Shown here: piece by piece, positions 91 to 54,150 of the stretch
Layout of the letters: every line of letters begins with the position of its first letter
Position numbering within the stretch: position 1 is the first letter of the stretch
Assembly (NCBI GenBank): GCA_964036275.1
Contig: OZ038433.1
Coordinates: 16,436,257-16,500,256, forward strand
Direction: 5' to 3'
From: Litoditis marina
Lineage: Eukaryota; Nematoda; Chromadorea; Rhabditida; Rhabditidae
Length of the DNA stretch: 64,000 nt
The notes under the pieces: generated by a model
Told to the model about the DNA's origin: nothing
The model's input: only the letters and a program-made list of their open reading frames with translations
The model's database searches: none
Program-made: the position numbers and the translations under genes

Positions 91-3000
91 TTAGATGGTG
101 GAGGAAGACAGATCGTGTAGGTATTTGTGTAGATTTTCGGCCGAGACGCAGCCGTCTTCAAAGGTGGAACTAGAGGCGACGATCTGCGCACCCAGGTACG
201 CCGCGTTGTACCGCCACGGAGAGATGTGCACCTGAAATCAGAAATACCTCTCAAATTGAAGATAATTACTGGATATAAAGTTCAAACTATGCTCAGAGGT
301 ACCACCCAGAAGATATGTGAACCTGGAATTATTTGCAAGTGTACAGAATCAGACTTCTGTAGGTTCATCGACCATCAAGTACTCGCTGTTACAACGGGAA
401 AGACCGTTCCCACAAATACTGACTCACGCTACGTGAGATATATTTCCACGCTATGAACAGTTGTAGTTCAGGTGGTTCTTTCTGAAAATTCTCAACCGGA
501 AGCATTGCATTTTGTTCGTTTTTCTGTTGAGATTCATTTCTCACAATATTGAAAATCTCTTCCACTCGATGTTCATACTCTCTCTTTCTCAATTTACATG
601 TCTACATCTCTACAACCATGCCAATCTCACCTGAGTGTGAATGGTACTGGGTACGATATTGGCCAGTTCTGACTCCAGTTTCTCAGCCAAACCGGGCAGC
701 AGAGACGCACCGCCGGCAAGGAAAATGTTCCTGAAACGGAGAGTTGTTGCCCTTGTTTTGTTCACTGTTTGTTGAAATCACCAATAACAATAAGTTCAAC
801 AGTGGTTTTTTGTGGTTTTCCGCAAATGGATAATTCGGGTGTCTGTCTATAAAACAATCGGTTGGAAGGTACAGTAGTAACACCACACCTACTCACAACG
901 TTGACTTACTAGGCACAATAAAATGAAAACATTAATCATCCCGTAATGGTGTTGAAGACTGTAGCACCTCAATATGTCTTAAGATTTGTTTTCAATGAGG
1001 TTTTCCTTGCTTTTAACACCACATCTTTTTATCATCATTTTGTTGGAAGTGAACTCCACAAATATAGAACTGTATAATACTTTTCCACGCCTATAGTTAC
1101 CGTCCTATCATCAGATATCGATTGATTATTGATTATTCTCGCATGTAGTTGTTTTCAACCAACACCTTTCATGCGTGTCACCTGATTTAGGTTGCCCTGG
1201 AATACATTTCATACGCATCAACTGATTATTGATTATTTCCACCTGTACAGTAATCGCCGGCTGTCAATAGGGCTCATCTGGACTGCCTCGTGGATGAGTT
1301 GGTGAATTCCCTTGGTATCCATTCCCCATTTCTTGGGACGGAAAAGTCCCTCCGTACACGAAAAACGCGACGAGTCGATCTGAAATCAGAGAACTACAAT
1401 CCAATCGAAAACCGAGTCTCACACATCATACTGTGCACACAGTATAGTGCTCACATTTATGCTCAGAACGATTGGCGCCAATTCTCTTCGATTGGCCAGC
1501 TACAAAAGCGAGATAGTGTGCAGGTCAATGAGGCCGCAGACATCTGGGTCTCTTTGACCTGCACACACTCTCGCTCAGCCAATGAAAAAGTGGCTGGCCA
1601 ATTGGCTGGGAATTGTCTGAGCCCAACTGGACTCGTTGGCAGCGTGCCAAAAACTTTGGAAGACTCTTATTAAGAGAAAACATATATTTAGCAAAAAGTT
1701 TCTTTGAATACGAATTGTAACGAAGGGAGAGAACCCTTCACATGAATTTCTATTGTTTTGAAGTTTTCAACGTGTTGAAAAACTGCATTGAAATTTCATT
1801 GGCAGGCTGCCCAAGTCCAGTTGGGAAATGTGCGAACTATATGTCTAGTCGCGATGTACTAGTTCGGTAGAAATCGACGATAATCTATGTTTCTCTATTT
1901 TTCTCCCGAATCGACTCGATGAACTCAAACAAATGACGTGGAAAGTTCTGGAACGAAGGAAGGGTTTTCAACGTTGCAAAAATGCTAGTCAAAACATGGT
2001 GACGATGCTGAAAAAACAAGCTAAACTTCTCTTAGACCTACCTTGAAGTGAGTGGGTAATAGATTTCCTCATACACATCAAAAACGTGGTCTTCTTACAA
2101 CGGACAAAACAAATTCGATCTACAACAAGTGAACGTACCTTGAAATGGGTGGGCATTGCGTGTGTTGGATTGAACTCATCTAAAGAGATGTCAATGTCAG
2201 GGTGGCTGGTTTTCTCCTCTTTACCGTAGTCCTCGGGCACGTAACACGTCTGGAACACAACATTGATTCCATTTTTCGGAAGTAAAAAAACACAATAAAT
2301 TGATATAAATCTGTTTCAAGTGTGGACCACCACAGTAATAATTTGAAAGCTTGCGTAAAACCGAAACATTTGACACGGAATCAAATAATTCTTTCGCAGA
2401 TACCTTATTTTAGGAAAAGAATTATACAAAGTAAAACAGAGATCGATATCACTCGTCATGTAATTTACGAAAAATTCAAATGTTCCATTTCATGTTGTTT
2501 TTGAAATGTTTAGGTCATTGTTCATCAAAATTTGTGTCGAGATCTTTCTCATTCTGCAGTTTTATTAACTATAATTCCGAAACTACTAAACTACTCACAT
2601 GTTCCATGACGTATCTGAGGATGAGCTTCTCAATGGGGCTCTGATAGGAGTACAACCCTCTGTTGTTGGCGGACAATTGCGTGCGCAACGCTTCGCGCAC
2701 CTGCGTAGCTCCGTAAGGAATGGAGCAGATTGCGGAGTCGACCACGTAGCCTAGAGAGAAACTTTGTTTTTCAATAGAAATAACATTTCTGTTTGATACT
2801 GATTTTGTTTAAACAATAATCAATTGAACACGGATTAATTAATGTACACCATATTAATTAAAATTGTGTACAATAAAAGTGAACGAATGCTTCTCTCCAA
2901 ACGTATTCATTGTGACTTCACAGTGAAACTTTTTTTGTTACAGATTCGATAAATTATCTTGAACGATGGTTGTTGTCTTTCCAGAAGACTCCTTTTCTCC

Positions 3001-4820
3001 AGCTAAAAGCACCCGTTTGACGCAAACAACAACCAGTAATACGGAATAACAATGAAACTTGTATTGTACCACGTATCGTTGAACAAAACCAACCATCAAT
3101 GACCGGTACAATATTGAGTGTGTCCCCGATGTCGACAACTACCCCAGTTGTGACGTCATAGGAGTAGAGGATCAGAGAGGGCTGGCGGGTTATCGCAGCA
3201 CCCTATATTAAAGAAAAAAGTTAGTACAATAGGTAAGATGGCTATGTGTAAGAAAACACAATAGTTATGTGTAAGAACACTTGAATACTCGTGATTGAGT
3301 TATAGTTCAACTATTTGCTATTTCACGTTAGAGTCATGTACAAGAAGTATAGTAGAGAGAAAGAGAACGTAGTCTTGTTTCTCATCCATACAAATCGATG
3401 TTGTTGACTGATTCATCATGAAAAAAACCTATGTTTCTGATCTACCGACCTGGAACTTGATGTCCTGAAGGGCAATTGTGAGAAGTTCGCCGATCAACAC
3501 ATTCGGGAGGTTCTGCGGCACCGAGAGAAGAACCTTGAAGCGAAAAAATATTTTCCCAACTGATTGTAACAGGAGCGTTATGTTCATAGACTTGTTGAAT
3601 TGTTTGAGAAAGTTTGCCAATCTGAGGCCGTATGCATGGAACATCCCGGGCCGGGTGGGGATGCTATCCCGAGCTCAATTCGACTATTTTCCTGCCAAAT
3701 TATATCGGGATAACATCCCAACCTCGCTCGGGATGTTTCATGCATACGGCCTCAGGTACGTTGTTCTTCAGTCATTAGATCGTTTCTGTGAAACTTCTTC
3801 CCAAGAGGTTACTGTAACGCACTAGGTATAGATGAACGGTATACATTTCTCGAAAGCAGTCCTGTACGTTTTATATATTTTCTATCACGCGTTGTTCATA
3901 GTTTGATTCCATGTTTTTCGGTCGAGAGTCGCAGATTCTGATGTATCTAGATCAAACTACAACTGTCCATACCTTGTACTTGGTGGGGTTGACCTGCACG
4001 TCGCGTACCACCTTGGCCATGCATTCTCGTACCACTTCGCGGTCGATGGTATATCGCTCGAGGGCCGGGTCCGCGGCCTGGATTGGACGCACGAAATCGC
4101 CAGAATGGCGGGTCTGCAAAGGGGCTGTAGTTTGTAGTTCAGTGGATTACGTTCTTTCTCTCTCTTCATCTCTCTTTTTCAAACATCTTCATCTCTCTTT
4201 TTGTTCGCTCTCTGTCTCTCGGTGTAGTTTCGTGAAGAGTAAGCAAAAAACCTAACTAGATTCTGTACCTGACTCATACTTGACATATTAACTGATCGAA
4301 TTGTTTTTTATTATGATTTATTCAGCATTTTCACGCATATTCATACTGTACTACTCTTTTTCTATACTTTCTGATAATTTCCGTACCTGAGGCCTCTGTC
4401 CTCAGTATGCTTCCTCTTCCACTACCACTTTCCTCTTTCTCTTCCCTCTCTCTTTCCGTCCCTTTCTCCCTCCCTACCTAAGGTGCGTATGATCTTTCCC
4501 CTACCAGCACTTCACTTTCTCTCCCTGTCCTTCCCCTCTCTTACTCTCTTCTCTCTCTCTCCCTTCCCCATCTTCTCTCTTCTCTCCTTCTCTTCCTCCC
4601 TCCTCTCTCGCTCCCTCCTCCCCTCTCTCTCCCTCCCTCTCTCCCTCCCTCCTTTTCTCTCTCTCCCTACCTGTGGTGCGTATGCCTCCTCTCCCACCAC
4701 CACTTTCCCCTCACTGGTTCTCACTGCGATGGCGGGGAAGAACGACTGTGGCAGCGTCGTTTCGCTCATCAGAACTCCCCCTCGAATCGAAGACGAACCG
4801 AGTTCGATCACCACCACTCG
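91..4820 (-). CDS. C-terminal actin-fold domain (exons 38-46)
   Basis: Nine exons (4671-4820 down to 91-231) encode 374 residues, almost exactly the length of conventional actin. Conserved features appear in order: phosphate loop 1 as RVVVIELGSSSIRGGV; a VLLSVPQNLPN segment; phosphate loop 2 as TTGVVVDIGDTLN; VIDGYVVDSAI; the EHTCYVPEDY region; GLFRPKKWGMDTKGIHQLIH; NIFLAGGASLLPGLAEKLE; and the end WRYNAAYLGAQIVASSSTFE. By eye alignment, residues equivalent to actin Gln137 and Asp154 are kept, Asp11 is Glu, Lys18 is Arg, and His161 is Ile. Nucleotide binding is thus plausible while polymerisation is doubtful. It is divergent, at the level of an actin-related protein, and I cannot assign it to a numbered Arp class. 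Phase 0 continuity with exon 37 ties it to the PH-like domain. Confidence 0.85.
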
Positions 4821-7800
4821 CTGAAAATACAACATGATACTTTAGAAAGATAACAATTTAGGTTTTTGTTATGAAATCTGAAAAGGGATCCACATTGGCC
4901 AAAGACAAAAACAACGATTTCTAGCGGGATACTTCGCAACATTTGCAATTTCCCAAAGATGATCTCAATCTAGTACAGAGTTGCATTTATGATTTTCCCG
5001 AAGGAGAACTCATCACAACTACAGCTACTGCCAGCTTTGTCTGGAGCGACCGCAACAGAAGTGACACTTCTCGTTCTGACGTGGTTTTAGTGCAACCTCC
5101 TGTTTCGAGCAGAACGCTCTACCTCTGTCAAATGTGCTCATGACTTGGGGAAATTTCTAGTTTATCCCGTGGTTCACAGTCATAAATTGTGCTAGGCTCC
5201 CGATTCAAACTATAACTCAAACTACAAACCACAGCCTCACCTCCGTCAAATGTGGCAATGCCTTGGGAATATTTGTAGTTTATTGCGTTGTTTCTAGCCA
5301 CAAATTGTGCTGTGTTTTCCAATCAAACTACAACTCACCGATCAGACTACAACTCAAACTACAAAGTGTTCCTTACCTCTTTTAAATGTGGCGATGCCTC
5401 GGGAACATTCTCAGTTCTTCTCATTGTTCACAGTCATGAATTGCGCTGTGCTCCCCGTTCAAACTATAACTCAAACTACATACTTACCTCAGTCAAATGT
5501 GTTCATGCCTTGTGTATATTTGTTGTTTGATTCTTGGATTTTTCAGGCAAGTTTACAGAGTGATGTGTTCACCGAGCAAACCACAATATAACGACCAAAC
5601 TACAACTTAAACTACAAAGTATGTCCTACCTCTTTTAAATGTGGCAATGCCTCGGGAACATTCTCAGTTCTTCTCATTGTTCACAGTCATGAATTGCGCT
5701 GTGCTCCCCGTTCAAACTATAACTCAAACTACATCCTCACCTCAGTCAAATGTGTTCCTTCCTTGTGTATATTTGTTGTTTGATTCTTGGATTTTTCAGG
5801 CAAGTTTACAGAGTGATGTGTTCACCGAGCAAACCACAATATAACGACCAAACTACAACTTAAACTACAAAGTATGTCTTACCTCTTTTAAATGTGGCAA
5901 TGCCTCGGGAACATTCTCAGTTCTTCTCATTGTTCACTGTCATAAATTGCGCTGTGCTCCCCGTTCAAACTATAACTCAAACTACATCCTCACCTCAGTC
6001 AAATGTGTTCATGCCTTGTGTATATTTGTTGTTTGATTCTTGGATTTTTCAGGCAAGTTTACAGAGTGATGTGTTCACCGAGCAAACCACAATATAACGA
6101 CCAAACTACAACTTAAACTACAAAGTATGTCTTACCTCTTTTAAATGTGGCAATGCCTCGGGAACATTCTCAGTTCTTCTCATTGTTCACTGTCATAAAT
6201 TGCGCTGTGCTCCCCGTTCAAACTATAACTCAAACTACATCCTCACCTCAGTCAAATGTGTTCATGCCTTGTGTATATTTGTTGTTTGATTCTTGGATTT
6301 TTCAGGCAAGTTTACAGAGTGATGTGTTCACCGAGCAAACCACAATATAACGACCAAACTACAACTTAAACTACAAAGTAGGTCTTACCTCTTTCAAATG
6401 TGGCAATGCCTCGGGAACATTCTCAGTTCTTCTCATTGTTCACTGTCATAAATTGCGCTGTGCTCCCCGTTCAAACTATAACTCAAACTACATCCTCACC
6501 TCAGTCAAATGTGTTCATGCCTTGTGTATATTTGTTGTTTGATTCTTGGATTTTTCAGGCAAGTTTACAGAGTGATGTGTTCACCGAGCAAACCACAATA
6601 TAACGACCAAACTACAACTTAAACTACAAAGTATGTCTTACCTCTTTTAAATGTGGCAATGCCTCGGGAACATTCTCAGTTCTTCTCATTGTTCACTGTC
6701 ATAAATTGCGCTGTGCTCCCCGTTCAAACTATAACTCAAACTACATCCTCACCTCAGTCAAATGTGTTCATGCCTTGTGTATATTTGTTGTTTGATTCTT
6801 GGATTTTTCAGGCAAGTTTACAGAGTGATGTGTTCACCGAGCAAACCACAATATAACGACCAAACTACAACTTAAACTACAAAGTATGTCTTACCTCTTT
6901 TAAATGTGGCAATGCCTCGGGAACATTCTCAGTTCTTCTCATTGTTCACTGTCATAAATTGCGCTGTGCTCCCCGTTCAAACTATAACTCAAACTACATC
7001 CTCACCTCAGTCAAATGTGTTCATGCCTTGTGTATATTTGTTGTTTGATTCTTGGATTTTTCAGGCAAGTTTACAGAGTGATGTGTTCACCGAGCAAACC
7101 ACAATATAACGACCAAACTACAACTTAAACTACAAAGTAGGTCTTACCTCTTTCAAATGTGGCAATGCCTCGGGAACATTCTCAGTTCTTCTCATTGTTC
7201 ACTGTCATAAATTGCGCTGTGCTCCCCGTTCAAACTATAACTCAAACTACATCCTCACCTCAGTCAAATGTGTTCATGCCTTGTGTATATTTGTTGTTTG
7301 ATTCTTGGATTTTTCAGGCAAGTTTACAGAGTGATGTGTTCACCGAGCAAACCACAATATAACGACCAAACTACAACTTAAACTACAAAGTATGTCTTAC
7401 CTCTTTTAAATGTGGCAATGCCTCGGGAACATTCTCAGTTCTTCTCATTGTTCACTGTCATAAATTGCGCTGTGCTCCCCGTTCAAACTATAACTCAAAC
7501 TACATCCTCACCTCAGTCAAATGTGTTCATGCCTTGTGTATATTTGTTGTTTGATTCTTGGATTTTTCAGGCAAGTTTACAGAGTGATGTGTTCACCGAG
7601 CAAACCACAATATAACGACCAAACTACAACTTAAACTACAAAGTATGTCTTACCTCTTTTAAATGTGGCAATGCCTCGGGAACATTCTCAGTTCTTCTCA
7701 TTGTTCACTGTCATAAATTGCGCTGTGCTCCCCGTTCAAACTATAACTCAAACTACATCCTCACCTCAGTCAAATGTGTTCATGCCTTGTGTATAATTGT

Positions 7801-10800
7801 TGTTTGATTCTTGGATTTTTCAGGCAAGTTTACAGAGTGATGTGTTCACCGAGCAAACCACAATATAACGACCAAACTACAACTTAAACTACAAAGTAGG
7901 TCTTACCTCTTTCAAATGTGGCAATGCCTCGGGAACATTCTCAGTTCTTCTCATTGTTCACTGTCATAAATTGCGCTGTGCTCCCCGTTCAAACTATAAC
8001 TCAAACTACATCCTCACCTCAGTCAAATGTGTTCATGCCTTGTGTATATTTGTTGTTTGATTCTTGGATTTTTCAGGCAAGTTTACAGAGTGATGTGTTC
8101 ACCGAGCAAACCACAATATAACGACCAAACTACAACTTAAACTACAAAGTATGTCTTACCTCTTTTAAATGTGGCAATGCCTCGGGAACATTCTCAGTTC
8201 TTCTCATTGTTCACTGTCATAAATTGCGCTGTGCTCCCCGTTCAAACTATAACTCAAACTACATCCTCACCTCAGTCAAATGTGTTCATGCCTTGTGTAT
8301 ATTTGTTGTTTGATTCTTGGATTTTTCAGGCAAGTTTACAGAGTGATGTGTTCACCGAGCAAACCACAATATAACGACCAAACTACAACTTAAACTACAA
8401 AGTATGTCTTACCTCTTTTAAATGTGGCAATGCCTCGGGAACATTCTCAGTTCTTCTCATTGTTCACTGTCATAAATTGCGCTGTGCTCCCCGTTCAAAC
8501 TATAACTCAAACTACATACTTACCTCAGTCAAATGTGTTCATGCCTTGTGTATATTTGTTGTTCGATTCCTGGATTTTTCAGGCAAGTTTACAGAGTGAT
8601 GTGTTCACCGAGCAAACCACAATATAACGACCAAACTACAACTTAAACTACAAAGTATGTCTTACCTCTTTTAAATGTGGCAATGCCTCGGGAACATTCT
8701 CAGTTCTTCTCATTGTTCACTGTCATAAATTGCGCTGTGCTCCCCGTTCAAACTATAACTCAAACTACATCCTCACCTCAGTCAAATGTGTTCATGCCTT
8801 GTGTATATTTGTTGTTTGATTCTTGGATTTTTCAGGCAAGTTTACAGAGTGATGTGTTCACCGAGCAAACCACAATATAACGACCAAACTACAACTTAAA
8901 CTACAAAGTATGTCTTACCTCTTTTAAATGTGGCAATGCCTCGGGAACATTCTCAGTTCTTCTCATTGTTCACAGTCATAAATTGCGCTGTGCTCCCCGT
9001 TCAAACTATAACTCAAACTACATACTTACCTCAGTCAAATGTGTTCATGCCTTGTGTATATTTGTTGTTCGATTCCTGGATTTTTCAGGCAAGTTTACAG
9101 AGTGATGTGTTCACCGAGCAAACCACAATATAACGACCAAACTACAACTTAAACTACAAAGTAGGTCTTACCTCTTTTAAATGTGGCAATGCCTTGGGAA
9201 CATTCTCAGTTCTTCTCATTGTTCACAGTCATAAATTGCGCTGTGCTCACCGTTCAAACTATAACTCAAACTACATCCTCACCTCAGTCAAATGTGTTCA
9301 TGCCTTGTGTATATTTGTTGTTCGATTCCTGGATTTTTCAGGCAAGTTTACAGAGTGATGTGTTCACCGAGCAAACCACAATATAACGACCAAACTACAA
9401 CTTAAACTACAAAGTAGGTCTTACCTCTTTTAAATGTGGCAATGCCTTGGGAACATTCTCAGTTCTTCTCATTGTTCACAGTCATAAATTGCGCTGTGCT
9501 CACCGTTCAAACTATAACTCAAACTACATCCTCACCTCAGTCAAATGTGTTCATGCCTTGTGTATATTTGTTGTTCGATTCCTGGATTTTTCAGGCAAGT
9601 TTACAGAGTGATGTGTTCACCGAGCAAACCACAATATAACGACCAAACTACAACTTAAACTACAAAGTAGGTCTTACCTCTTTTAAATGTGGCAATGCCT
9701 TGGGAACATTCTCAGTTCTTCTCATTGTTCACAGTCATAAATTGCGCTGTGCTCACCGTTCAAACTATAACTCAAACTACATCCTCACCTCAGTCAAATG
9801 TGTTCATGCCTTGTGTATATTTGTTGTTCGATTCCTGGATTTTTCAGGCAAGTTTACAGAGTGATGTGTTCACCGAGCAAACCACAATATAACGACCAAA
9901 CTACAACTTAAACTACAACGTATGTCCTACCTCTTTTAAATGTGGCAATGCCTTGGGAACATTCTCAGTTCTTCTCATTGTTCACAGTCATAAATTGCGC
10001 TGTGCTCACCGTTCAAACTATAACTCAAACTACATCCTCACCTCAGTCAAATGTGTTCATGCCTTGTGTATATTTGTTGTTCGATTCCTGGATTTTTCAG
10101 GCAAGTTTACAGAGTGATGTGTTCACCGAGCAAACCACAATATAACGACCAAACTACAACTTAAACTACAAAGTAGGTCTTACCTCTTTTAAATGTGGCA
10201 ATGCCTTGGGAACATTCTCAGTTCTTCTCATTGTTCACAGTCATAAATTGCGCTGTGCTCACCGTTCAAACTATAACTCAAACTACATCCTCACCTCAGT
10301 CAAATGTGTTCATGCCTTGTGTATATTTGTTGTTCGATTCCTGGATTTTTCAGGCAAGTTTACAGAGTGATGTGTTCACCGAGCAAACCACAATATAACG
10401 ACCAAACTACAACTTAAACTACAAAGTAGGTCTTACCTCTTTTAAATGTGGCAATGCCTTGGGAACATTCTCAGTTCTTCTCATTGTTCACAGTCATAAA
10501 TTGCGCTGTGCTCACCGTTCAAACTATAACTCAAACTACATCCTCACCTCAGTCAAATGTGTTCATGCCTTGTGTATATTTGTTGTTCGATTCCTGGATT
10601 TTTCAGGCAAGTTTACAGAGTGATGTGTTCACCGAGCAAACCACAATATAACGACCAAACTACAACTTAAACTACAAAGTAGGTCTTACCTCTTTTAAAT
10701 GTGGCAATGCCTTGGGAACATTCTCAGTTCTTCTCATTGTTCACAGTCATGAATTGCGCTGTGCTCCCCGTTCAAACTATAACTCAAACTACATCATTAC

Positions 10801-13537
10801 CTCAGTCAAATGTGTTCATGCCTTGTGTATATTTGTTGTTCGATTCCTGGATTTTTCAGGCAAGTTTACAGAGTGATGTGTTCACCGAGCAAACCACAAT
10901 ATAACGACCAAACTACAACTTAAACTACAAAGTAGGTCTTACCTCTTTTAAATGTGGCAATGCCTTGGGAACATTCTCAGTTCTTCTCATTGTTCACAGT
11001 CATGAATTGCGCTGTGCTCCCCGTTCAAACTATAACTCAAACTACATCATTACCTCAGTCAAATGTGTTCATGCCTTGTGTATATTTGTTGTTCGATTCC
11101 TGGATTTTTCAGGCAAGTTTACAGAGTGATGTGTTCACCGAGCAAACCACAATATAACGACCAAACTACAACTTAAACTACAAAGTAGGTCTTACCTCTT
11201 TTAAATGTGGCAATGCCTTGGGAACATTCTCAGTTCTTCTCATTGTTCACAGTCATGAATTGCGCTGTGCTCCCCGTTCAAACTATAACTCAAACTACAT
11301 CATTACCTCAGTCAAATGTGTTCATGCCTTGTGTATATTTGTTGTTCGATTCCTGGATTTTTCAGGCAAGTTTAGAGAGTGATGTGTTCACCGAGCAAAC
11401 CACAATATAACGACCAAACTACAACTTAAACTACAAAGTATGTCTTACCTCTTTCAAATGTGGCAATGCCTCGGGAACATTCTCAGTTCTTCTCATTGTT
11501 CACAGTCATAAATTGCGCTGTGCTCACCGTTCAAACTATAACTCAAACTACATCTTTACCTCAGTCAAATGTGTTCATGCCTTGTGTATATTTGTTGTTC
11601 GATTCCTGGATTTTTCAGGCAAGTTTACAGAGTGATGTGTTCACCGAGCAAACCACAATATAACGACCAAACTACAACTTAAACTACAAAGTAGGTCTTA
11701 CCTCTTTTAAATGTGGCAATGCCTTGGGAACATTCTCAGTTCTTCTCATTGTTCACAGTCATGAATTGCGCTGTGCTCCCCGTTCAAACTATAACTCAAA
11801 CTACATCATTACCTCAGTCAAATGTGTTCATGCCTTGTGTATATTTGTTGTTCGATTCCTGGATTTTTCAGGCAAGTTTAGAGAGTGATGTGTTCACCGA
11901 GCAAACCACAATATAACGACCAAACTACAACTTAAACTACAAAGTATGTCTTACCTCTTTCAAATGTGGCAATGCCTCGGGAACATTCTCAGTTCTTCTC
12001 ATTGTTCACAGTCATAAATTGCGCTGTGCTCACCGTTCAAACTATAACTCAAACTACATCTTTACCTCAGTCAAATGTGTTCATGCCTTGTGTATATTTG
12101 TTGTTCGATTCCTGGATTTTTCAGGCAAGTTTACAGAGTGATGTGTTCACCGAGCAAACCACAATATAACGACCAAACTACAACTTAAACTACAAAGTAG
12201 GTCTTACCTCTTTTAAATGTGGCAATGCCTTGGGAACATTCTCAGTTCTTCTCATTGTTCACAGTCATGAATTGCGCTGTGCTCCCCGTTCAAACTATAA
12301 CTCAAACTACATCATTACCTCAGTCAAATGTGTTCATGCCTTGTGTATATTTGTTGTTCGATTCCTGGATTTTTCAGGCAAGTTTACAGAGTGATGTGTT
12401 CACCGAGCAAACCACAATATAACGACCAAACTACAACTTAAACTACAAAGTAGGTCTTACCTCTTTTAAATGTGGCAATGCCTTGGGAACATTCTCAGTT
12501 CTTCTCATTGTTCACAGTCATGAATTGCGCTGTGCTCCCCGTTCAAACTATAACTCAAACTACATCATTACCTCAGTCAAATGTGTTCATGCCTTGTGTA
12601 TATTTGTTGTTCGATTCCTGGATTTTTCAGGCAAGTTTACAGAGTGATGTGTTCACCGAGCAAACCACAATATAACGACCAAACTACAACTTAAACTACA
12701 AAGTAGGTCTTACCTCTTTTAAATGTGGCAATGCCTTGGGAACATTCTCAGTTCTTCTCATTGTTCACAGTCATGAATTGCGCTGTGCTCCCCGTTCAAA
12801 CTATAACTCAAACTACATCCTCACCTCAGTCAAATGTGTTCATGCCTTGTGTATATTTGTTGTTTGATTCTCGGATTTTTCAGGCAAGTTTACAGAGTGA
12901 TGTGTTCACCGAGCAAACCACAATATAACGACCAAACTACAACTTAAACTACAAAGTGTTCCTTACCTCTTTCAAATGTGGCAATGCCTTGGGAATGGGC
13001 TTCACGTAGGCGTCTATTTGGGACGAGGCTGCATGGGACAGAATCGCCTGACGCCATTTATCGAAAACGGCAGAAGGGACACTGAAAATTATACTAATAT
13101 TAATAAGATTAATAGTATCGATTATATTAATAACCTTAATATATTATTGTTTCAGAGCTATTCCAGCCGTGTTTTCTTCAAGAATACAGTACGAAACCAC
13201 GTTTGCGTACAATCGTACAGTTTGAATGCTTTGAAAGAGAAAATCTAGGGACTTCAAAAGTTTCATGTGGAAATTTTGTTAAGCAGAAGATAAATTTGAA
13301 ATATTTTCAAATTTGGGATAAGAAAAACAAGTTTTGTTGACACTGAAAGACAAATCGAAAAACCAGAAAACATGACACGAATTTGTTATTCCCGGCCTAT
13401 TTTCGGAAACACAACATTGTTTACAAAACGAAAGTTGGTTCTCGATCTTCGAAAGAAATTTGGATATTTCGAATGTTCTCGTTTGAAACGAAAATAGAGT
13501 GTTCAGAGCCCAGGAAGCAGTTGGAACCTCAGAAAGT

Positions 13538-13592
<55 letters not shown>

Positions 13593-16500
13593 AGGGAGAG
13601 AGAGAGAGAGAGAGAGAAATTAGAGGAGAGAGTGAGAGAGCGGGTGCGGAAGAGTAAAGAATAGAGAGAGAGAAAAGAGAGAGAGAGATAGATAGGAGAT
13701 AAATAGGCCAGAGAAAACAAGACATTTAAATGAAATGAGCAAAAAATAGAAGGGAAATGTGATGGGAGAGATGAAAAAACAGAAAACGAGAGATATAAAG
13801 AGAGACTCACCGAATGATGAGTTTCACGTGTTCCTTCCCCCCGTGGATGGTCAGTGTCCTCTCTTCTCTGTTGGCGTCGACGTCTGTTCCGGAGAGAATT
13901 ATCTCTTGAGCAGGCGACTCTTCCGCGCAATGGGTCTGTAACATGAAAAATTGAGTAAAAGTTATTCTATCTATTAAGTAAAAGTTGATTTCTCCATCTT
14001 AAACTAATCTACTGAGAAAGTGGTTATTTCTGTGATTTTCTGTTTGTGACAAACTTTCTGCGATTCTTCCGCGCAGTGTAACAGGGTTGTCAAAGTCGAA
14101 CTCGAAACTCGACCCGACTTGAAAGAACTCGGAAAATTTTCGAGTCGAGTCGAACTCGAACCTCGAAAACACGAAAGCTCGAAATTTTGAACTCGATCAA
14201 CAACCCTAGTCTGTAACGAGACAAATTGAATGAAAGGTATTTTATCTAAAAGTGAATTTCTCTATCGTAAAATAATCCATGGAGAAAAGGTTGTTCTGTT
14301 CCAATTTTCGACGAAAGTAACAGTTTCACTAAGTTCCACCACAAAAACCATGGTTTATACTTCGAAACGAGCCATGCGTTTTACAGTTCAATTTAGAGTG
14401 TCTTTTATTTCTCGGTGAGTCTGAATCACACTTTTTGTATGGATAACTGTTAGAAGCTCGCGAAAGATAGAAGATAACCCTGTAGTTTTCTCGAAAACTA
14501 ACATGTGTTCCAGGGAACACTATTTCGACCCCCTTTCATAGTTTCTTTGATTTGAAGAACCTCGACATCTCCAAACCCACCACAAATATCTGCAGTCGTC
14601 CCTCCTTGGTTCTCATGTACTGCTGTTTCCACTCCCTCTCCAACTCCGCCAAAGTGTTCGTCTCATCCGACGGTACATCCACGTGACCCTCCATGTTCAC
14701 GAAGCGGTTACGTTTCGTCTCCACGCGCGGCTCGTACGAAACCTACAAACGAAGTTTTGTTTTCAACTTTAATCTCAATTATTTAACAGTTTGAAACTTC
14801 CTAAAATACACTTAAAACCAAAAAAACTCGTATGAAACCTGGAAAAAGTCAGACTTTTATTTCCGCAAATCCACTCTTCAAAATTTCCTAACATTTGCTT
14901 GAAGCCCCAGCTTCATTGAAAACTATTACTAAAAATTATCCCGACCACTACGACTTTCAAGATCTGTTAACCGTTTTAGGTTTTAGTTTACGGAATTTTG
15001 ATATTTGGCAAGTGGACGGAAAATAATTAGCAAACCAGAACAACAGTACTGTTTTTAACCTATACATTATAATAGTTACAATAGTATAATATTACTCCAC
15101 GCGCGGCTCGTACGAAACCTGAATTAAAAATCTAGAGAACACCACGTTTCATAGACAAGTTTTCATGTATTCAACCCAAACTTATTTAAATTATTCAGAT
15201 GAGGTTCATGTTTTCCGCGCCAGGCAGGAGTTTCGTTCGTTACAAAGTAGATGTTCCAGCTCAACTAGACCAATGATTTTCTGTCCAGGATACAGAAAAA
15301 CATCACAACAAAAAGATTGATTAGTTGGAGAGAAGTTAAATTCTCCATTTCGTACCTCATATAGTGCGTGCACGAGTTTCCTCGGATCCCAGTCCTTTAA
15401 TACTTGCGATTCCTCTCCGCCCAACTTCTCCAATCCATTGGAGACGTCGCCATTTGACGTCGCAAATTCGATATCCGGCATCTTGAACAAAACAAGGTTG
15501 TTAATAAGTTATATATTGTTTATATGTTACTTGTTGAAACATTGTTTATATGTTAATACAACATTATTGAATAACTGAATTGAACCGAGTATATAAAAAA
15601 GTTCATACCAAACAGCAACAAAACTAGGAAAAAACCTTATTATAAAGAAATTAAACACTTTGCTACACGTTGACGTGCTCTCATTCTGAACGTGATCAGT
15701 AGGTTGGTAGATTTATATTCGTTCCAGGCTAGAACACCAAATCAACAATCTTAGATAATTTCTCACAGCACTACTTGTCTTTCTCTCTCTATTTAAGGAA
15801 AAATTACATTTCGGCAGTTTCATACCTTCAGTTTCTGATTCGAGAATCTGATGTTGTTCTCGTACGTCTTCACAGTCCACGATCTGAATTAAACGTAAAT
15901 AACTATTTTCAACGCGTTACTTGGTTTTCTAACTGTCTTTAATGTACTACAGCTAGATGATAGACATAAATCGTGAGCTCATTTTCTTGGTTTATCAGTG
16001 ATCGAAAATTCTGTCTTCAAAGTTTTTGGTGACCTTCCTCATATTTTTCCAACAATGGAGATTTTAATGGGCATGGTGTAAAATTCACAACTAACTTGTC
16101 GGAATACACAGACGAAATCATTCTGACGACTAACCTGCGACCACTGCCGTTTCTCTGAAGCGTCTGTACTTCAAGTTGTTCGGTCTCGTGAGATTCGACT
16201 GCCGACGGCGCACGGTTTTCCGCTTGTTCTACCGATGGCGCACGGTTTTCCGAAGACTCGACGACACGGACTTTTTCGATGATAGGCAGCGGCTCGTAGT
16301 GCGATGTTCTGACGGCTGCGCGTGGCTGCAGGGGCGAGGGTGCGGGTGAGCGAGTTGCTGCGGGGACTGCAGCTGCCGCACGGTTTTCGGGGACGAACGA
16401 CGCAACTGCCGCACGGTTTTCAATGGGCGACGGCGAGCGACGGACAATCCACGTGGGCGAGATACTACCGCCAGACGGGTGGTGAACACTGAAAGAAAAA

Positions 16501-19500
16501 TAATCAATATAGGGGAGAATACTTAGAAATTTCAAAGTATAGCCATATAAATACATTCGAAGACAGCTACAGTATACATTCCAGCTTCAACTGGAACTTT
16601 TATATCAAATTAGCGTGTATACAAGTTTCAAAATGATACCGTAAGTGTCTACCACTACAAATAACAGACTATATGCTCACCGAAGCATTTGGAAGACGTT
16701 CAAGCTCAAGTTTTCGAAAAGAATGCCTTATTTGGGGCGGGATTTCGCCCATTTTAGGGATAAACATTCTAGGGATGTCTGGCAAAACACAAAAATGTGA
16801 CTCGAAAGCAGCAAAAAACAGGAAAGAAGGGAAAATGATCAGAGATGGAGAAACGCAAAACAACCGCTAAGCTTCTTTCAAAACAGACACTCAGATTCAG
16901 ACAAAATGTCACTGACAAAAAATGTGAACAACTTTGGGGTATAATTCTGTCTACTCCCAATGATTTCAGTTTTCAGCTTTCAGCCCTACTGTTCATTGTT
17001 GTTTTATTATATTGAAAGTTTTAATACTTCTGTTCATCGAACTGTATAAAAATCAACAAAACGTTTACAGACTGAAGTTGCAGTATTTAGATTTGAGAGG
17101 CTTGGAGAGAAACAACACAGACAGTTCAATCTCATACAAAACACTTAAAGAAAATCAAGTATGGAATTTGGCTAATTGTATGGCACATTTATGTTGTGAT
17201 TTTCTGAATCAGAAATGACTCAAAGCGGAGTAACCAAATGAGTAACAGAATTATTCTTTCTATATAAATATTCATGTAGTTTACTCTGGTGGAGTAGAGG
17301 GGAAACGTACTACTTATATCTGTTTTTCTCTTAACTAATTTTTTAAACTGTACCTATTTTAACTAGATATTTCATTTTGATTTGGAGTGAAACGAATCAA
17401 AATCACCAGAATATCGGGGTGAAGTTTCGAGAAAAAATTTACTGCCAGATAAAAAATAGTTTGAAAAAACGACATAGGGGAGTGAAATATTGAAATTCCG
17501 CCTAATAACGTTTTTGAATGTGAATTGTTCTAACCGTTCAAATAACTACTACTCGAAAGCTCATATGGTGCTTGAAAACTTATAAAACAATTGGTCGCAC
17601 ACATACATTTTGTTGTAGATTTATATTAAAGACAAAATGAGAATCAAAAAATCTCAAAGTTGCGGTAATTTGGGCAAAGTAATGAATAGTTGAACCTTGC
17701 TTATGTCGAATGTGTTTGCAATTTGTGTACAAAAAGACATGGCGGCGATCGATCGAAGTTTTGCGGGCACTCGAAACATTGAAAGGGGGATAGATTATAA
17801 TAATATAGTAGTTTTAAGGGGATAAAAAGAGAGGAGACGAAAGTGGGAGAATAGTGGGGTGAGAAATAACTTGACCCTCAGACACAGATAAGGTGAAAAG
17901 GAGGAAAGATTTAAAAAAGAAAGATAAAAGAGAAAGAAAGAGAAAAGAGAGCAAGAGCAAGAGCAAGAGAACGAGAACGAGAAAAAGAAAGAGAAAGAGA
18001 AAGAGAAAGAGAAAGAGAAAGAGAAAAGGGAAGAGAAAGAGAAATAGAGAGAAAGAGCAAGAGAAAAAGAAAGAGAAAAAGGGAAAACGAGCAAGAGAAA
18101 GAGAAAGAGAAAAAGAAAGAGAAAAGGGAAGAGAAAGAGAAAGAGAGAGAAAGAGGAAGAGAAAGGGAAAGAGAAACGGCAAGAGAGAGAAAGAGCAAGA
18201 GAAAAAGAAAGAGAAACGGCAAGAGAGAAAGAGAAATAGTGAAAGAACATGGAAATAGAGAAGAAGGAAGGGAAAGAGAAAAGAAAAAGAACATGAAATT
18301 ATACAAGAAAAGAAGGAAAGATTGAATTGTGAATGGGAAGATAACTGGAAAGAGGGGGTTTCGGGTCATTGAATTGATTCGGGGAAAAAAGCTTCGGAAG
18401 CGCCTGAATTGCATAGCCAGATGTTGTTTACAGAAAGACAGAAAGAGGGGGATGGAAATAAACAAATTCTGGAGAAAGGGAGAAATATTAATAGAATAGA
18501 ATAGTTATTGAATCACGTGTGACTTCAAAAGTTGAATATGAAAAGAAGTCGAAATGTGTTCCATAATGGCGGCAAAAGTACTAATGAAAATATTACTCAA
18601 AATAACCGGTTAGATTTCAAGTGAACACAAATATCAAGTTGTTGCTGTTAACTCCAATGAAATTTTTTCACGAACACATACGTCTGAGTAGGGCCAGAAT
18701 CAGTTTCGTTTTGGATACAACAGAATGGGAAACAATGCTTACATGACAATACCTACTGCAGAAAAAAAAAACATCCTCAAAGTACAGATGTATTTGTAGC
18801 TCGTAAAAACGAGTATTAATTCAATAAAAAAAGTCTGAATAAGGTTTTACTAGTGAACTTCTGGCTAGTTTTTTGTTTTCTGTATGTTACGGGCAGCTGG
18901 GAGTGAGGTGTGTTTGTTGTGTTTGCTAGGCGCCCAATCAATATGAGAAAAGGTAGATAACACATGCGGTAGGAGGGAGTTATAGTCCGCGTCACGTGAA
19001 TGTCACCTGTTACAGTACCCTTTTCTGTATTCAAATGAATGTTTTCTAATGGAACAAAAGACTAGTTAAGAAATGTATCACCTCATCATCTCATTTTTCT
19101 CTATTTCGAATCTACTTTATTTTTCATTATTTTCGAAACACAGATTCGCTCACTAAACATCCCGCTTTCAAAAACATGGTTTCATTATATTTTGCAATGA
19201 TACAAAAGGGTTCATGAACCTGTTATATAGAACCAGGGCTCAACACTTTTCTGCATTTTTGATATAATTACTACAAAGATTTTTATGAAAAGCAATCCGC
19301 TCAGAAACACACATTTCACGTGTCGTTTTACGTGTCGTTTTACGTGTCGTTTTACGTGTCGTTTTACGTGTCGTTTTACGTGTCGTTTTACGTGTCGTTT
19401 CACGTGTCGTTTCACGTGTCGTTTCACGTGTCGTTTTACGTGTCGTTTCACGTGTCGTTTCACGTGTCGTTTTACGTGTCGTTTTACGTGTCGTTTTACG

Positions 19501-21709
19501 TGTCGTTTTACGTGTCGTTTTACGTGTCGTTTCACGTGTCGTTTCACGTGTCGTTTCACGTGTCGTTTCACGTGTCGTTTCACGTGTCGTTTTACGTGTC
19601 GTTTTACGTGTCGTTTTACGTGTGAAGGTCTGGTGTCAGACACGGTTTTTTTTAAATAAAGAAGCATAGAGAAGCATAAGTATGAGGTGTTCAAGAGGTA
19701 GATACTAATTGCTACTGAGCCCGTTTAAAGTGACAATTAATCAATTCATCAATAGTAATTAGTACATTCTTTCATATAAATGGCAGGTTCAGGTGTGTTC
19801 ATTCTATGTTTCGGTTAATTCGTGAACATCAAGCTATATGGGGTCTGCTGCTACATGTTCGGCCCCTAGATGGCTCGCTCGCGAACATGTCGCCTAACTC
19901 TCTCTTAATTGCGAACATAACGCGGTCAGAGAGAACATAACGCGGTTAGAGAGAACACTACGCGAAAGTTTATAATAGTTGAGAACTCAGGGCGGTAGAG
20001 TTTCATACATTATGAAAGAATTTACTCAGTTGACATATCTAATGTCATTTCTGGTGTCAGGTTGGATGTATGCTTGGTTACAAGTTCACAAAAAATGGTA
20101 ACTATCAGAATCATATAATATAAAAAACAGTCGGATGTCGGTAATCTAAATTTCTCCCTCAAAATTTCGCCTCGAACTGCAACGAGCCAGTAACCTGAGG
20201 CGCAACGAGCCAGTGACTTAAGGTTCAACGACCTATTCTAGGAACCATGGCTTACCTAAGCCTAAGCCTTTTTATTAGGTAAACTGAAGTAAATGTGACA
20301 AATATTTAATTAGAACAGCATATATGGTTTTCTTCCTTTACACTTTGCACTGATCTGGGCAGGTGTAAATATTTCCCATAACTTCACTGATAACCAAGCC
20401 TAAAAACTGTTGGCAATACCGCGTTATGTTTTCTAGTACCGCGTTATGTTTCCAAGTTGAGCTTTATGTTCGCTGTTCAGGCTCGCTCTTCTATAATTGA
20501 TTTTACGATGGTTGTCTCGCTAATTGCGAACATAAAGCTGATCTCCCAGCTATATGCCAATTGTTCAGAATAGTTTATGTGGTCCTACTGGAGGTATTTT
20601 CTTCGAACATTTTCCGAAACCTAAAAAAAGTTAATTTCCTAATATTAATTTACTGTTGTTTTGTGTACTGTAATCAGTTTTTATTGAACTCAGAGCTCCG
20701 TATATAGTTCAAACTACAACTATGTGGAATCTACTTTACACCGGAAAGTTTGTGTGAAAAGAAAATCGGAGTGTATAAAAGTTATAATGGATACATATTG
20801 GTATATGTGTGAAAACGTTAAAAATCTTCCAGAATCACAATACTTTCGGTTTCTGGGCTTCCTAAATGCGAAAGTCAATTACACAGTCACCTGACACATG
20901 CTAAACACAGCAGAACTCAGAAACGTGCAATGACAAAGTGCACGATTCCTCATTAGAATGCTTACTTTACGTGACTGTTCAATTTACTTCTAGTATAACT
21001 TTGAATTGTATTTTTCTGTTTCTGGGCTGCCCAAATGTGAATAAAAGGGGTTGTGTTCGGTGTTCTAATACACTATTCACAGCCATTCTAATGTCTTTTC
21101 TTTTCCACTTTTTGGGGAACAAAAAAAACCAAATCGATGGAGGCAAATGGGAAGGAAATTATGGGTTGCGGGTGAAATATTCGAAATTCGTTGCATAAAA
21201 GAATACAATGTGGAAATGCACTTTTGGAATGGTTTGTATTGCTTAATTTTAATAGGGAATAGGGCAACTTCTGATCTACTAATCATCGAAAAGTTTGTAT
21301 GAAAAGCATAAGAAAGTGTAATAGAAACGTTATCGAATTCTACAACTAACACATATTTCTGGTCTCCGTTTTCATGAGAAAATATATGGTAAACAACTCG
21401 TCGAAACTTAGAAACATGAAAATGTTTTATCTAATTACTTATTAAAATATTCGGGTTAGGTTGCCGAAATCACTCAATTAGGTAGCTAGTCGGTGCCTTT
21501 TGACACTAAACTGACAAGTTATTCCGGTTTTGAGGTAGTGGGGGGGGGGGAGGTAAGAGGGGGAGAGAGGGGGGGAGAGAGGGAGAGAGAGGGCGAAAGA
21601 GAGAGGGAGAAAGAGAGAGGGAGAGAGAGAGAGGGGGAGAGGGAGGGGAGAGGGAGGGAGGAAAAGGAGAAAGAGGGGAGAGGGAGAGAGAGAAAGAGTG
21701 GGGAGAGAA

Positions 21710-35200: not shown

Positions 35201-38200
35201 GAGTGAGTTTTTTTGGAAATCACAATGCTGCCAATCTTTTTAACAGTTTAATGTTCAATTCAACTCGGAACTTTTAAAAAATGTGTAGTATAAAATGAAA
35301 AAAGGAAAAGGCATCGTTCTTAGTTTTGAAGTGTGTGTACTTTCCCGAACCTTGGTTTCAGCATGGTCTCCGGCAACTTCGTCGTAAATTCGCTCCTCGT
35401 GAACGGTGGAGTAGATTGGCTGCAAACAACATTAATTTTATTACTTTTACAGATAACTGTAAACACGTCGTGTTCAAAATCAACGAAGTACAATTTTAAC
35501 ATCATATTTATTTTGTGAAAAGTTCTTCGTCAGACGCCCGGGAAGATTTGAACGTAAATTCCAATCAAAAGTTTTCCGTTGAAATGCTCCCGCTCATCGC
35601 GCAGTATGCGTGCAGAATTCAGAATAATTTTTGTCAGTTCGCAATTCAACAGCTGTTCCAAACCTCTTCCTTGGCCTTAGACTTGTCCAAATACTCCTTG
35701 GACTCCTTCAGAATCTCCTCCACGTGAGCCAAATCCGCGGTGAACTTCTCCGCGAAGCCATCGATGACCGAAGTCGAACTGGCGTGGTAGATTTCGGCGT
35801 AGTCGCCTTCCTAGAACAAGATCAACTTTCAAATACACTTTTATTATTGAAGTAAAAACGCATGGTTATCCCACATTGATTTCTTTTCGATTTCACATAC
35901 TTGTTTGTCTCTTTTTCACTGTTACAACTGTCGTTTCTCTATTATAACCGATCGAACGGCTAGTTCCAATCATTTTCCCCCTCATTTTCCGAATATGTTC
36001 ATTTTGAATTTCCATCCATCCATGTTTTTATCATTATACATACTTATCTTCTTGTTTTTCCCGACATTTTTTGTCTATTCACTCGCATTTCCATTTAACT
36101 TGTGAATCTCACCTGGTAGTGTGTGTGTAGAGATGAAACAATCTGAAGATAATAAGGAATTCTCGAAAAATCTTTAATCTTGAAAAATCCCACCTGGCTA
36201 ACTGGTTGAGCAGAGTACAAATCCGAATGGCTCTTCGAGAGCTGAAATGAAATGTTCTGGGAGAAGATGTTATTGTTTTATTCACAAACAAAAAAGTTCA
36301 CCGCGGATCCCGCGTTATTTCGAATTGATATAGTGCGCGCTAAAAAGGGCGCGAAAGTGCACACCGTCCACTTTTGAACGAAGGGGGCTGTTTTTCCCCA
36401 GCCAGCGCAAAACCGTTCTTGTTTTCAGTTTGATTTGCATTGATTACGACTCGTGCGCCTTAATAATGTTTTACATATTTACATTCTTGAAAGATTAGAA
36501 CTCTGAAATAGATCTATTCGATCACGGAACGATTGTTTACTATAATACAAATTCAATGAACAACGCCGCTGGGTAACTAATTTTGCTTACTCTAGTCTCT
36601 TGGCCAACTTGGATCATCGAGGCATGATGAATTCCCTGTAAGTTCCATGTAAAATGAAATGAAAAAAGAAATCAGTCCACAATATCACTTTGATTGATTA
36701 TTTCAATCAAGTATGGGTTGCATATGAATAGTTAGAATTTCTCTCTGTTTAATGGAAAAAGCACAATTTGACACAATAAATGGAAAATTTAGCCAGGTTA
36801 TATATGAACACCGAAGAATGGAACGAAATGACCAACTGCCCGCCCATTTCATTGTGATATCTTCAAGTGAACCCACGTTCTCCTGTTCCTCCGTCATTTC
36901 CGTGTGGCTGGTGTGTACTCCTCCGGTGCCAGTCTCCTCGTGCTGAAAAAAAACAATTACTCTCAAATCTACTCCCATGACCCCCTCAATCCTATGTCTC
37001 TAACCCTCACCCCTTCCAGGATGTTCTTGGCGCATTCTGCATCTTCCCCAACAGACGTGGCGACAGCCTCCAGAGACGAGTTTGACACGACAGCTTCATC
37101 CGTTTCTGATGTGTCGTCAGGAGTACTCTGCAAATTCTCATCGTGTTCGACTACTTCTACGGATTCTGTGGTGGTTTTCTCGTTGATGGAAGAATCCTCC
37201 GACAGTTGAGCATGCTCAGTTTCTTGTACTTCGTCCGATTGGTGTTCTTCGAGGGTCATGGCTTCTGCCGCGGCCTCAACTATCTCGGCTTCTGAGATTT
37301 CAACCCAGTCTTCGGTTGTCTTTTGTTCGTCCTCTGATAGGTTGTCTACATTTTCCGTGTCTTGTTCGAGTTGAACGGCTTCCACTTTGAGATGTTCTTC
37401 TTCCGAGTTTTCAGCTGTTTTAGTGAGAACCACCTCGGTATGTTCAGCCGCTGTTTCAAGCACCAAACTGGCTGTGGTTGTTACATTCTCCGTGGTCTCC
37501 TCGGTAACAGATTCGTGCTCCTCTCCATCGGAGTGATTGTCAACGACGTCCTCTGTAGCTTCTTGTTGCTCGAGAACAACTTCTTCCGAGTGAACTTCAT
37601 GATGTTCTTCTTGCTGTTCGGCGGTTTCCTGCGTTTCTTCCACAACGTCATGAGTTTCGGCCTCAGTGTGAATTTCGTTTGATTCTATTTCTTCGTTGAC
37701 TTCAATCTCTTCATGTGCTTCAGTGGCGTGTTCTACACTTCCAATTTTTTCATCTTGCGAATCCGTTGCTGGTTCAGCAGTTTCCGAACTATTGTTGTCT
37801 CCCACAACTTCAGCTTCATCGGAAGACTGTTGTGTTACTGTGTATTTCACCTCAGTTTCAGTTTGTTCAATATGCTCCGAAGTTTCGTCTGACGTGCCAA
37901 CATCCACACTGGAAGTTGTTTCATTCTCGATCTGCACGGCCAACTCTTCTTCGTGATGATCGTCAGAGTCATTGTTGGTTTTCTCTACGTGAGGCACGTA
38001 TTCAGCTGAGTTTTCCATCATCTTTACAAGATGTTCTTCTTGTGTGCTCTCTTGAATCACCACAGTTTCCATGTGCTCAGCTTCAGAATCAACGTTTCCT
38101 GCATCTTCAAGTGACACGCTTTCAACGGAGTTCTCGGTCGTCTCCACTTGATGTTCTTCTTGTGTGCTCTCTTGAGTTACTACAGTTTCCATGTGCTCAG

Positions 38201-53539: not shown

Positions 53540-54150
53540 AATTGACGCCAAACGCTGGCGCCCAGTGGCGCCAAATTAGAACAACGCCAGGATTGTAGGG
53601 TAACGAGCGAAATGTTCCACAGATGTCCAAACGATGAACATAGTTAACGAATACGGCTTGGGTACCAACATTTCTTCGACATTATGCGCCAAAACGGTAC
53701 TTTATCCGCCAATTGGCACCAAAATTGAAAATAGGGTTTCTGAATCAAAAAACAGTCGGAAACTGTGCTAATTGGTCGAGGTCATTCATTCCAAGTTATT
53801 TGTTACCAATTAGAGTAACTTTATATTTGGCGCCAAACGCTGGCGCCCAGTGGCGCCAAATTAGAACAACGCCAGGCAAGTAGGGTAACGAGCGAAATGT
53901 TCCACAGATGTCCAAACGATGAACATAGTTAACGAATACGGCTTGGGTACCAACATTTCTTCGACATTCTGCGCCAAAACGGTACTTTATCCGCCAATTG
54001 GCACCAAAATTGAAAATAGGGTTTCTGAATCAAAAAAACAGTCGGAAATTGTGCTAATTGGTCGAGGCCATTCATTCCAAGTTATTTGTTACTAATTAGA
54101 GTAACATGTTCTGTATCTGGCGCCAATGGCTGGCGCCCGTTCGCGCCAAT
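53540..54150. repeat. 285-bp tandem duplication rich in GGCGCC palindromes
   Basis: The unit from gacgccaaacgctggcgccc (53543) to the end of gttatttgttaccaattag recurs from 53828 at a period of 285 bp with about 95 percent identity. A third, partial unit starts at about 54118 (ctggcgccaatggctggcgc). Each start holds several ggcgcc palindromes. An older related block is at 53400-53450. Confidence 0.85.

Follow-up and report, generated by a model that had tools for sequence, protein, structure and literature searches.

A tandem array of exon-end and splice donor copies fills most of an intron in a PH-actin gene of Litoditis marina, with similar junction copies in other introns

The window analysed here, a stretch of 64,000 nucleotides from the nematode Litoditis marina (assembly GCA_964036275.1, contig OZ038433.1, positions 16,436,257 to 16,500,256 of the forward strand), carries on its minus strand a gene for a protein with PH-like and actin parts, in which most of one intron is a tandem repeat of the preceding exon's end and its splice donor. 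Among 840 candidates, 23 nematode proteins with both parts are homologous to the gene product at E <= 0.001, with a Heterorhabditis protein showing the highest identity to the assembled product (79%), and exons were placed by tblastn with four of these 23 homologues. On the composite product Pfam recognises actin (E 3e-16) together with a subthreshold match to MreB and gives no support for a PH domain, the PH name coming from the orthologue records, and a PDB sequence search with the product returned nothing. The upstream part of the gene model has no relatives among 7995 scored candidates; a preliminary description of the locus had numbered the exon ahead of the array as 37, a number that we do not retain since the exons upstream of 16488 are without homology support.

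That exon (12967..13081, minus strand; tblastn with orthologues and alignment) encodes the C-terminal part of the PH-like domain and ends in ...KPIPKALPHLKE. It is followed by a phase 0 intron of 8146 bp at the boundary between the PH and actin parts (4821..12966, minus strand; tblastn, donor and acceptor scoring), which separates ...LPHLKE from RVVVIELGS, and then by the exon that starts the actin-like domain, RVVVIELGSSSIRGGVL... (4671..4820, minus strand; Pfam, tblastn). In a comparison that covered the proteins of the relatives, two of the orthologues, P0018 and P0021, look wrongly predicted at this very point, which suggests that they too have an intron there; its position thus appears to be old.

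About 7.8 kb of this intron is taken up by the tandem exon-end copies. Tandem Repeats Finder (TRF) reports a dominant array at 5339-12995 with a period of 253 bp, 30.3 copies, 98% matches and 0% indels, and identity at a lag of 253 is 98.7%, compared with 25-36% at 14 other lags that are not multiples of 253. When cut in register, 5406..12995 (minus strand; TRF, lag identity, alignment and GAGGT positions) comprises 7,590 bp, or exactly 30 x 253 without indels, in agreement with the earlier count, while the span first proposed (5115..13081) has to be narrowed, as 5115-5405 holds diverged flanking copies that lie outside the exact array. On the transcript strand each unit divides into two halves, A of 142 bp and B of 111 bp, and both carry a version of about 31 bp of the end of exon 13081-12967 (12967..12997, minus strand; alignment of copies), then a GAG|GT donor and then a spacer. 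The two exon-end copies with donors per unit, as well as an array that adjoins the real exon end at 12967, had both been described beforehand and were both recovered here.

The two halves are only 63% identical, compared with an average of 97.8% between whole units, which is the composition of a higher-order repeat satellite, with diverged monomers in a multimer whose units are far more alike than the monomers themselves. We observe 21 variable sites and 13 distinct sequences among the 30 units, arranged in ordered blocks, with identity falling from 98.8% between neighbours to 96.8% between units 20 or 25 apart. Homogenisation, which had been suggested from the first look at the array, is in line with these values, and the pattern would fit local unequal exchange with older sequence left at the ends.

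The unit is a dimer, and copies with a period of 118 bp persist beside the array at 5121-5337. All flanking copies were placed by alignment on the minus strand. The outermost A-type copy (5377..5407, donor at 5376) is followed by GTAAGGAACAC, as is the real junction, whereas the inner units have GTAAGACCTAC, GTAAGACATAC or, in two units, GTAGGA. Beyond it lie two older copies, the B-like F1 (5241..5271, donor at 5240), which encodes IPKALPHLTE with the threonine of the orthologues, and F2 (5123..5153, donor at 5122), which encodes ...HLTE and whose likeness to the other copies stops at about its GAG|GT, where unique intron begins. Genome searches covered 261.8 Mb in 522 contigs, and their match counts may be lower bounds. 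A 17-base exon-end word (at most one mismatch) was found in at least 31 places, only at this locus. The likeness to the exon was to be regarded as secondary if the unit occurred elsewhere without it; the 253-bp unit matched only at this locus. An Rfam search gave no match at gathering scores. On the antisense (plus) strand, the array at 5406-12995 contains 30 strong acceptor-like TTTTTCAG sites.

With respect to the spacers, the motif CAAACTACAACTCAAACTACA (up to two mismatches) has 109 forward and 48 reverse matches in the genome, compared with one and one for the reversed pattern, and about 60 of the forward matches lie inside the array. The exact core TTGTAGTTTGA-N40-70-TCAAACTACAA occurs in 1595 places and its reversed pattern in none; at 62-92 bp, these cores are short, of high copy number and bounded by inverted end repeats, as in miniature inverted-repeat transposable elements (MITEs). 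Scored against 15 such cores, with shuffled controls, the spacer of the 5376 copy (5275..5376, minus strand) reached 56 (shuffled maximum 34), the half A consensus 41 (30) and F1 40 (28), while the half B spacer was unclear (32 versus 27 on one strand, 32 versus 32 on the other). The array spacer thus seems related to the dispersed MITE-like element as a diverged relative. A long target-site duplication around the core seems unlikely: when the flanks of 34 core matches, several of them from each locus, were compared, a direct repeat was clear at L039 and weaker at L040. At L039 a flank of 42 bp is repeated locally in direct orientation with the core inside the repeat, as though element and flank had been duplicated together.

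The exon end itself is conserved. The Heterorhabditis orthologue has KPIPKSFQHLTE|RVVVLELGS, and the residue before the final glutamate is threonine in 22 of the 23 homologues, with a gap in the remaining one, and lysine in the exon of the window. Threonine is encoded by half B, F1 and F2, and lysine by the exon, half A and the 5376 copy; in addition, the half A spacer is 94% identical (102/109) to the start of the real intron. Conservation of this end among the orthologues makes the exon the source of the array, and the repeat, as judged from these alignments, derives from a conserved coding exon end with its donor, joined to sequence related to the MITE-like element. Because half B, F1 and F2 have kept the threonine, at least one round of copying seems to be older than the change from threonine to lysine, and half A seems either to be later than that change or to have been converted.

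The array supplies a large number of potential 5' splice sites. All splice-site scores come from a self-written matrix based on the nematode consensus, in which the real donor GAG|GTAAGG (12961..12966, minus strand) scores 10.8 bits. From this donor downstream (first intron base 12966), the intron holds 63 GAGGT, 62 of them in the repeat family, compared with 35 in the 55.9 kb elsewhere on the transcript strand. These 62 decoys, which bear out the earlier estimate of about 60 donor-like sites ahead of the actin part, are divided between 5406-12995 (59) and the flanking copies at 5376, 5240 and 5122, and they are spaced by 111 bp (30 times) and 142 bp (29 times), then 136 and 118 bp, with a further 26 to the unrelated GAGGT at 5096. 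This is the arrangement of a donor-bearing minisatellite, with tandem units that each carry a 5' splice site motif and adjoin an exon. The half A donor is GTAAGA in 27 of the 30 units, and the half B donor is GTGAGG (19 units), GTAATG (6), GTAAAG (2) or GTAAGT (3). Among the decoys, 27 (GTAAGA) score 10.7 bits, 3 (GTAAGT) 12.1 and 20 score 10.1, with the rest lower; 52 sites in the intron, the real donor included, lie within 2 bits of the real donor, and sites no more than 1 bit below it have a density of 6.4/kb, compared with 0.13/kb in the rest of the window.

Acceptors show the opposite trend, with the best sense-strand acceptor in the array scoring 6.3 bits (16 places) and the real acceptor at 4820 scoring 10.9. 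Since good sense-strand acceptors are lacking in the array, pseudo-exons would be poorly defined and the decoys are probably orphan donors. When the exon is extended past the real donor it continues with VRNTL and then a stop, so that use of a decoy would cost the actin-domain protein. Close to the real acceptor, 57 bases before it, there is an acceptor-like CTTTTCAG (4870-4880, exon start 4877) with 11.8 bits, the use of which would yield a stop two codons later.

The array is real, and similar junction copies, which the first description had not mentioned, are present elsewhere among this gene's introns as well as in certain myosin genes. Within the PH-actin gene, exon ends were aligned to their facing introns (all on the minus strand). 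At 4443..4527, in GA-rich sequence, the end of exon 4820-4671 is copied together with its donor (CACCTTAG|GTAGGGAG in the copy), and a further copy of exon sequence lies at 4405-4436. Exon 14742-14581 has an exact 26-bp copy of its start, AG|GTTTCGTACGAGCCGCGCGTGGAG, at 15095..15120, whose own acceptor scores 8.5 bits, compared with 4.5 for the real one, and which is directly followed by TAA; a third, partial copy lies 96 bp ahead of the real acceptor. The acceptor region of exon 13935-13811 is copied at 14209..14266, with a piece of the exon start further on in the intron at 14078-14060. Two more copies have a modest score of 27, one of the donor of exon 2249-2139 (ACTTCAAG|GTAGGT; 2036..2056) and one of the acceptor of exon 231-91 (ATTCCAG|GTTCACAT...; 299..329). 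Against 60 shuffles, 7 of the 26 junction tests beat all controls in the facing intron (one being GA-rich and one winning by only 2 points), and 6 of the 26 exon-sides exceed every control from the gene's other introns by more than 4. At a score of 26 or more, with the array included, there are 6/26 exon-sides with same-strand copies and 0/26 with inverted ones, and all six cross the facing splice site. Local repeats as a window-wide feature were rejected, as an exact-seed scan of the window gave only 7 pairs scoring 16 or more outside the array, with the 26-bp junction copy tied for best.

Myosin genes were screened in the same way, with exon ends taken as the ends of hidden Markov model matches, some of which span introns, and with the intronless locus L044 excluded. 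A first test, in which 2 of 43 junctions beat 20 controls by more than 4, had controls inflated by paralogous loci, and inverted strands were therefore used as the control instead. The screens total 83 exon hits, with 12 same-strand and no inverted copies (cut-off 28: 6 and 0 from 29 hits, 5 and 0 from 30; cut-off 26: 0 and 0 from 14, 1 and 0 from 10). We judged six of the 12 to be clear junction copies (L055, L073, L052, two in L070 and one in L061), the other six being short or away from a junction. The clear copies fall in only three genes (C1 near 4.94 Mb, C3 near 17.63 Mb and C3 near 4.06 Mb), and the effect is therefore clustered. The architecture of L055 resembles that of the array, with a real 72-bp exon end and donor, two complete copies of it in tandem (TRF period 176, 2.4 copies) and another two that are shorter and have diverged further. 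A further case was spotted by eye at the next junction in L055. The excluded L044 (contig C318) has a myosin head in one 1338-aa open frame without introns, unlike the other myosins, and is perhaps a contaminant.

For 17 copies, comparison with the exon junction was anchored at the splice site. On the exon side, 12 of 17 copies keep 16-20 of 20 bases, with 5-15 kept by the remaining five; on the intron side, 13 of 17 retain 5-6 of the initial 6 bases, but over the 30 bases beyond +6 no relationship is apparent in 10 of 17, with an eleventh having 7 comparable bases. Measured against their exons, 12 non-array copies show 30.5 synonymous and 10.5 non-synonymous changes, with an expected synonymous share of 24% if only the copies decay or 39% if both sides change; frames and ends were picked by hand, some changes are common to several L055 copies, and the copies of exons 13935 and 4671, the third 14742 copy and F2 were left out, so that p-values from this count come out too small. 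Such copies may be young and made from diverged alleles, or they may result from copying bounded at splice sites. The possibility that they are cassette exons was rejected: of the seven donor copies tested, four lack any in-frame acceptor above 0 bits upstream, and in the three from L055 acceptors above 1 bit are confined to the copy itself, while the four acceptor copies hit stops after 24-105 nt. With poor acceptors and early stops, translation of the copies is unlikely.

Taken as a whole, we consider it probable that a tolerated duplication of the junction was followed by amplification of a dimer, that the resulting decoys are orphans and that the underlying process is a recurrent one. The first step would be a duplication across the exon-intron junction that was tolerated because the exon-adjacent copy remained intact and its donor still worked, everything downstream of it being spliced out. 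Monomers of about 118 bp (F1, F2 and B-like) would have arisen while the exon still encoded threonine, and the A+B dimer later, after the change to lysine (unless half A was converted); the dimer would then have spread to 30 copies through unequal exchange or slippage, with GTAAGGAACAC being kept at the real junction and the 5376 copy and lost by the inner units. The real donor is, as had been pointed out, the first that the polymerase meets; being transcribed first, it would pair with its own exon's acceptor. On this account the array would need no function, and it would stand at the far end of a process that repeatedly duplicates exon ends and splice sites into the facing intron.

A number of observations weigh against parts of this account. 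Since the decoys match the real donor in strength, weakness cannot explain why they would go unused; position rather than strength would have to select the real donor, and splicing probably has to ignore near-perfect decoys. The array copies, counted apart from the 12 others, have no synonymous excess (synonymous to non-synonymous: A 1:2, B 2:5, F1 1:1), and the short non-array copies do not resemble decayed tandem duplications. In the test against other introns the best alignment spans the splice site in only 4 of 6 cases; the cut-off of 26 was set once two cases at 27 were known, and at 28 only 4/26 exon-sides of the PH-actin gene remain. Two myosin genes are without any copy (0/28 sides). 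Furthermore, arbitrary 60-bp query windows have local copies too, at same-strand rates of 1.8-3.6% per side (myosin loci 26/1470, 1.8%; 63500-16700 44/1222, 3.6%; PH-actin interior introns 8/224, 3.6%) and inverted rates of 0.95-2.2% (14/1470, 18/1222 and 5/224), although 21 of the 26 myosin matches lie in four loci with junction copies and those of the PH-actin introns are mostly junction copies already known.

The baseline bears directly on the strongest alternative, that the junction copies are ordinary local tandem duplications, with segments of every kind being duplicated, those inside exons purged, those at junctions surviving and any copy that has a conserved exon as its partner staying recognisable for longer, and with no special mechanism; we regard this as a serious contender that falls somewhat short of an even chance. 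Copies from the exon screens are all same-strand and local, some tandem cases take in the intron side (the array, L055 and exons 4671 and 13935), and there are same-strand local copies in other places too. What such duplication accounts for less well is that 7 of the 10 copies with an unrelated intron side beyond +6 still keep 16-20 of 20 exon-side bases, that the non-array copies have a synonymous excess (partly through changes shared within L055), and that outside the four loci just 5/1470 window-sides match, compared with 6/83 clear myosin cases, although query lengths differ. Introns do contain inverted local copies, although the exon screens yielded none at the cut-off. Ordinary local duplication filtered by selection may account for part of the junction signal. 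A stronger version of the recurrent process, in which exon ends are copied up to or a few bases past the splice site by a mechanism that senses borders (RNA-linked or break-repair copying would be candidates), so frequently that a single gene has nearly intact decoy junctions in several introns, with the array as its extreme product, and in which splicing rejects decoys of the same strength as the real sites by position alone, strikes us as unlikely.

Less probable still is a functional array, in which some 60 orphan donors would bind the U1 small nuclear ribonucleoprotein against premature polyadenylation or tune the balance between PH-only and PH-actin products. The sense strand is indeed rich in strong donors and poor in acceptors, the read-through stop comes right after the PH part, and F1 is better preserved in its exon part (30/33 relative to the exon) than in its spacer (45/85 relative to the real intron start; P = 9e-5). 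However, homogenisation by itself preserves donors, donor positions are if anything more variable than others (5/18 versus 16/235 sites, P = 0.01), and the single AATAAA of the 8.1-kb intron means little in a repeat of 253 independent bases. We give little credence to an assembly artefact, whether through collapse or false expansion of the array or through tandem joining of diverged haplotypes: an exact 30 x 253 without indels might raise this suspicion, and synonymous differences between copies and exons would suit diverged haplotypes, but the 13 unit sequences come in ordered blocks with identity dropping over distance and older ends, which argues against a fabricated array, the locus sits in a contig of 55.65 Mb, and the genome search found no second copy of it. 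That a satellite entered the intron first and the exon then took its last 31 bp from the repeat is rejected as extremely improbable, for although the spacer belongs to a dispersed family, orthologous proteins keep the exon end and the genome search found the exon-like word nowhere else.

The remainder of the window holds an open frame of 1368 aa in which EHIPI motifs recur and whose end is acidic (36969-41075, minus strand), a 12-bp tandem repeat TTTTACGTGTCG with 25.8 copies and 97% matches (19314-19623), a local duplication in direct orientation, some hundreds of bases in size (53560-54120), and a tRNA-Leu (cag) gene (56720-56790, minus strand).

The locus amounts to a natural experiment on how the spliceosome would choose one donor among about 60 similar ones, with local exon sequence much alike and distance differing. 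The copies also record the past of the exon, some keeping a codon that the exon has since lost, and, if common genome-wide, junction copies would be a source of intron growth and alternative splice sites. We found no report of junction copies of this kind in nematodes in the portion of the open-licence literature that was available, which is weak evidence of novelty.

Several known systems share single features with this one. Tetris of Drosophila virilis (PMC4079207; satellites from foldback or MITE-like elements) likewise has element sequence within a tandem array, but the unit here also holds a coding exon end and donor and is found at one genic locus only. Introner elements (mentioned in PMC9169325) resemble the array in having mobile element sequence beside splice sites; in introners, however, the element carries or creates the splice sites of a new intron, whereas here the donor was copied from the exon itself and belongs to the exon-derived 31 bp plus GT, not to the element, and the intron position appears old. 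In intron gain by tandem duplication, a duplication over an exon-intron border also carries splice signals, but creates a new intron, whereas here an old-looking intron would have been lengthened at its donor side and then amplified. The closest precedent is the donor minisatellite of the human gene 6-16 (IFI6/G1P3), which has a unit of about 12 bp and of which some repeats are reportedly used as donors. That this minisatellite provides multiple splice donor sites is the subject of Turri, Cuin and Porter (1995; cited in PMC2572611). Both loci have a tandem repeat at an exon-intron border, a donor per unit and many candidate 5' splice sites in one intron; the array of L. marina differs in its 253-bp unit, which combines a MITE-related spacer and two versions of the 31-bp exon end, in its 59 decoys over 7.6 kb, in donors recognised from their sequence, and in the similar copies that lie elsewhere in the genome.

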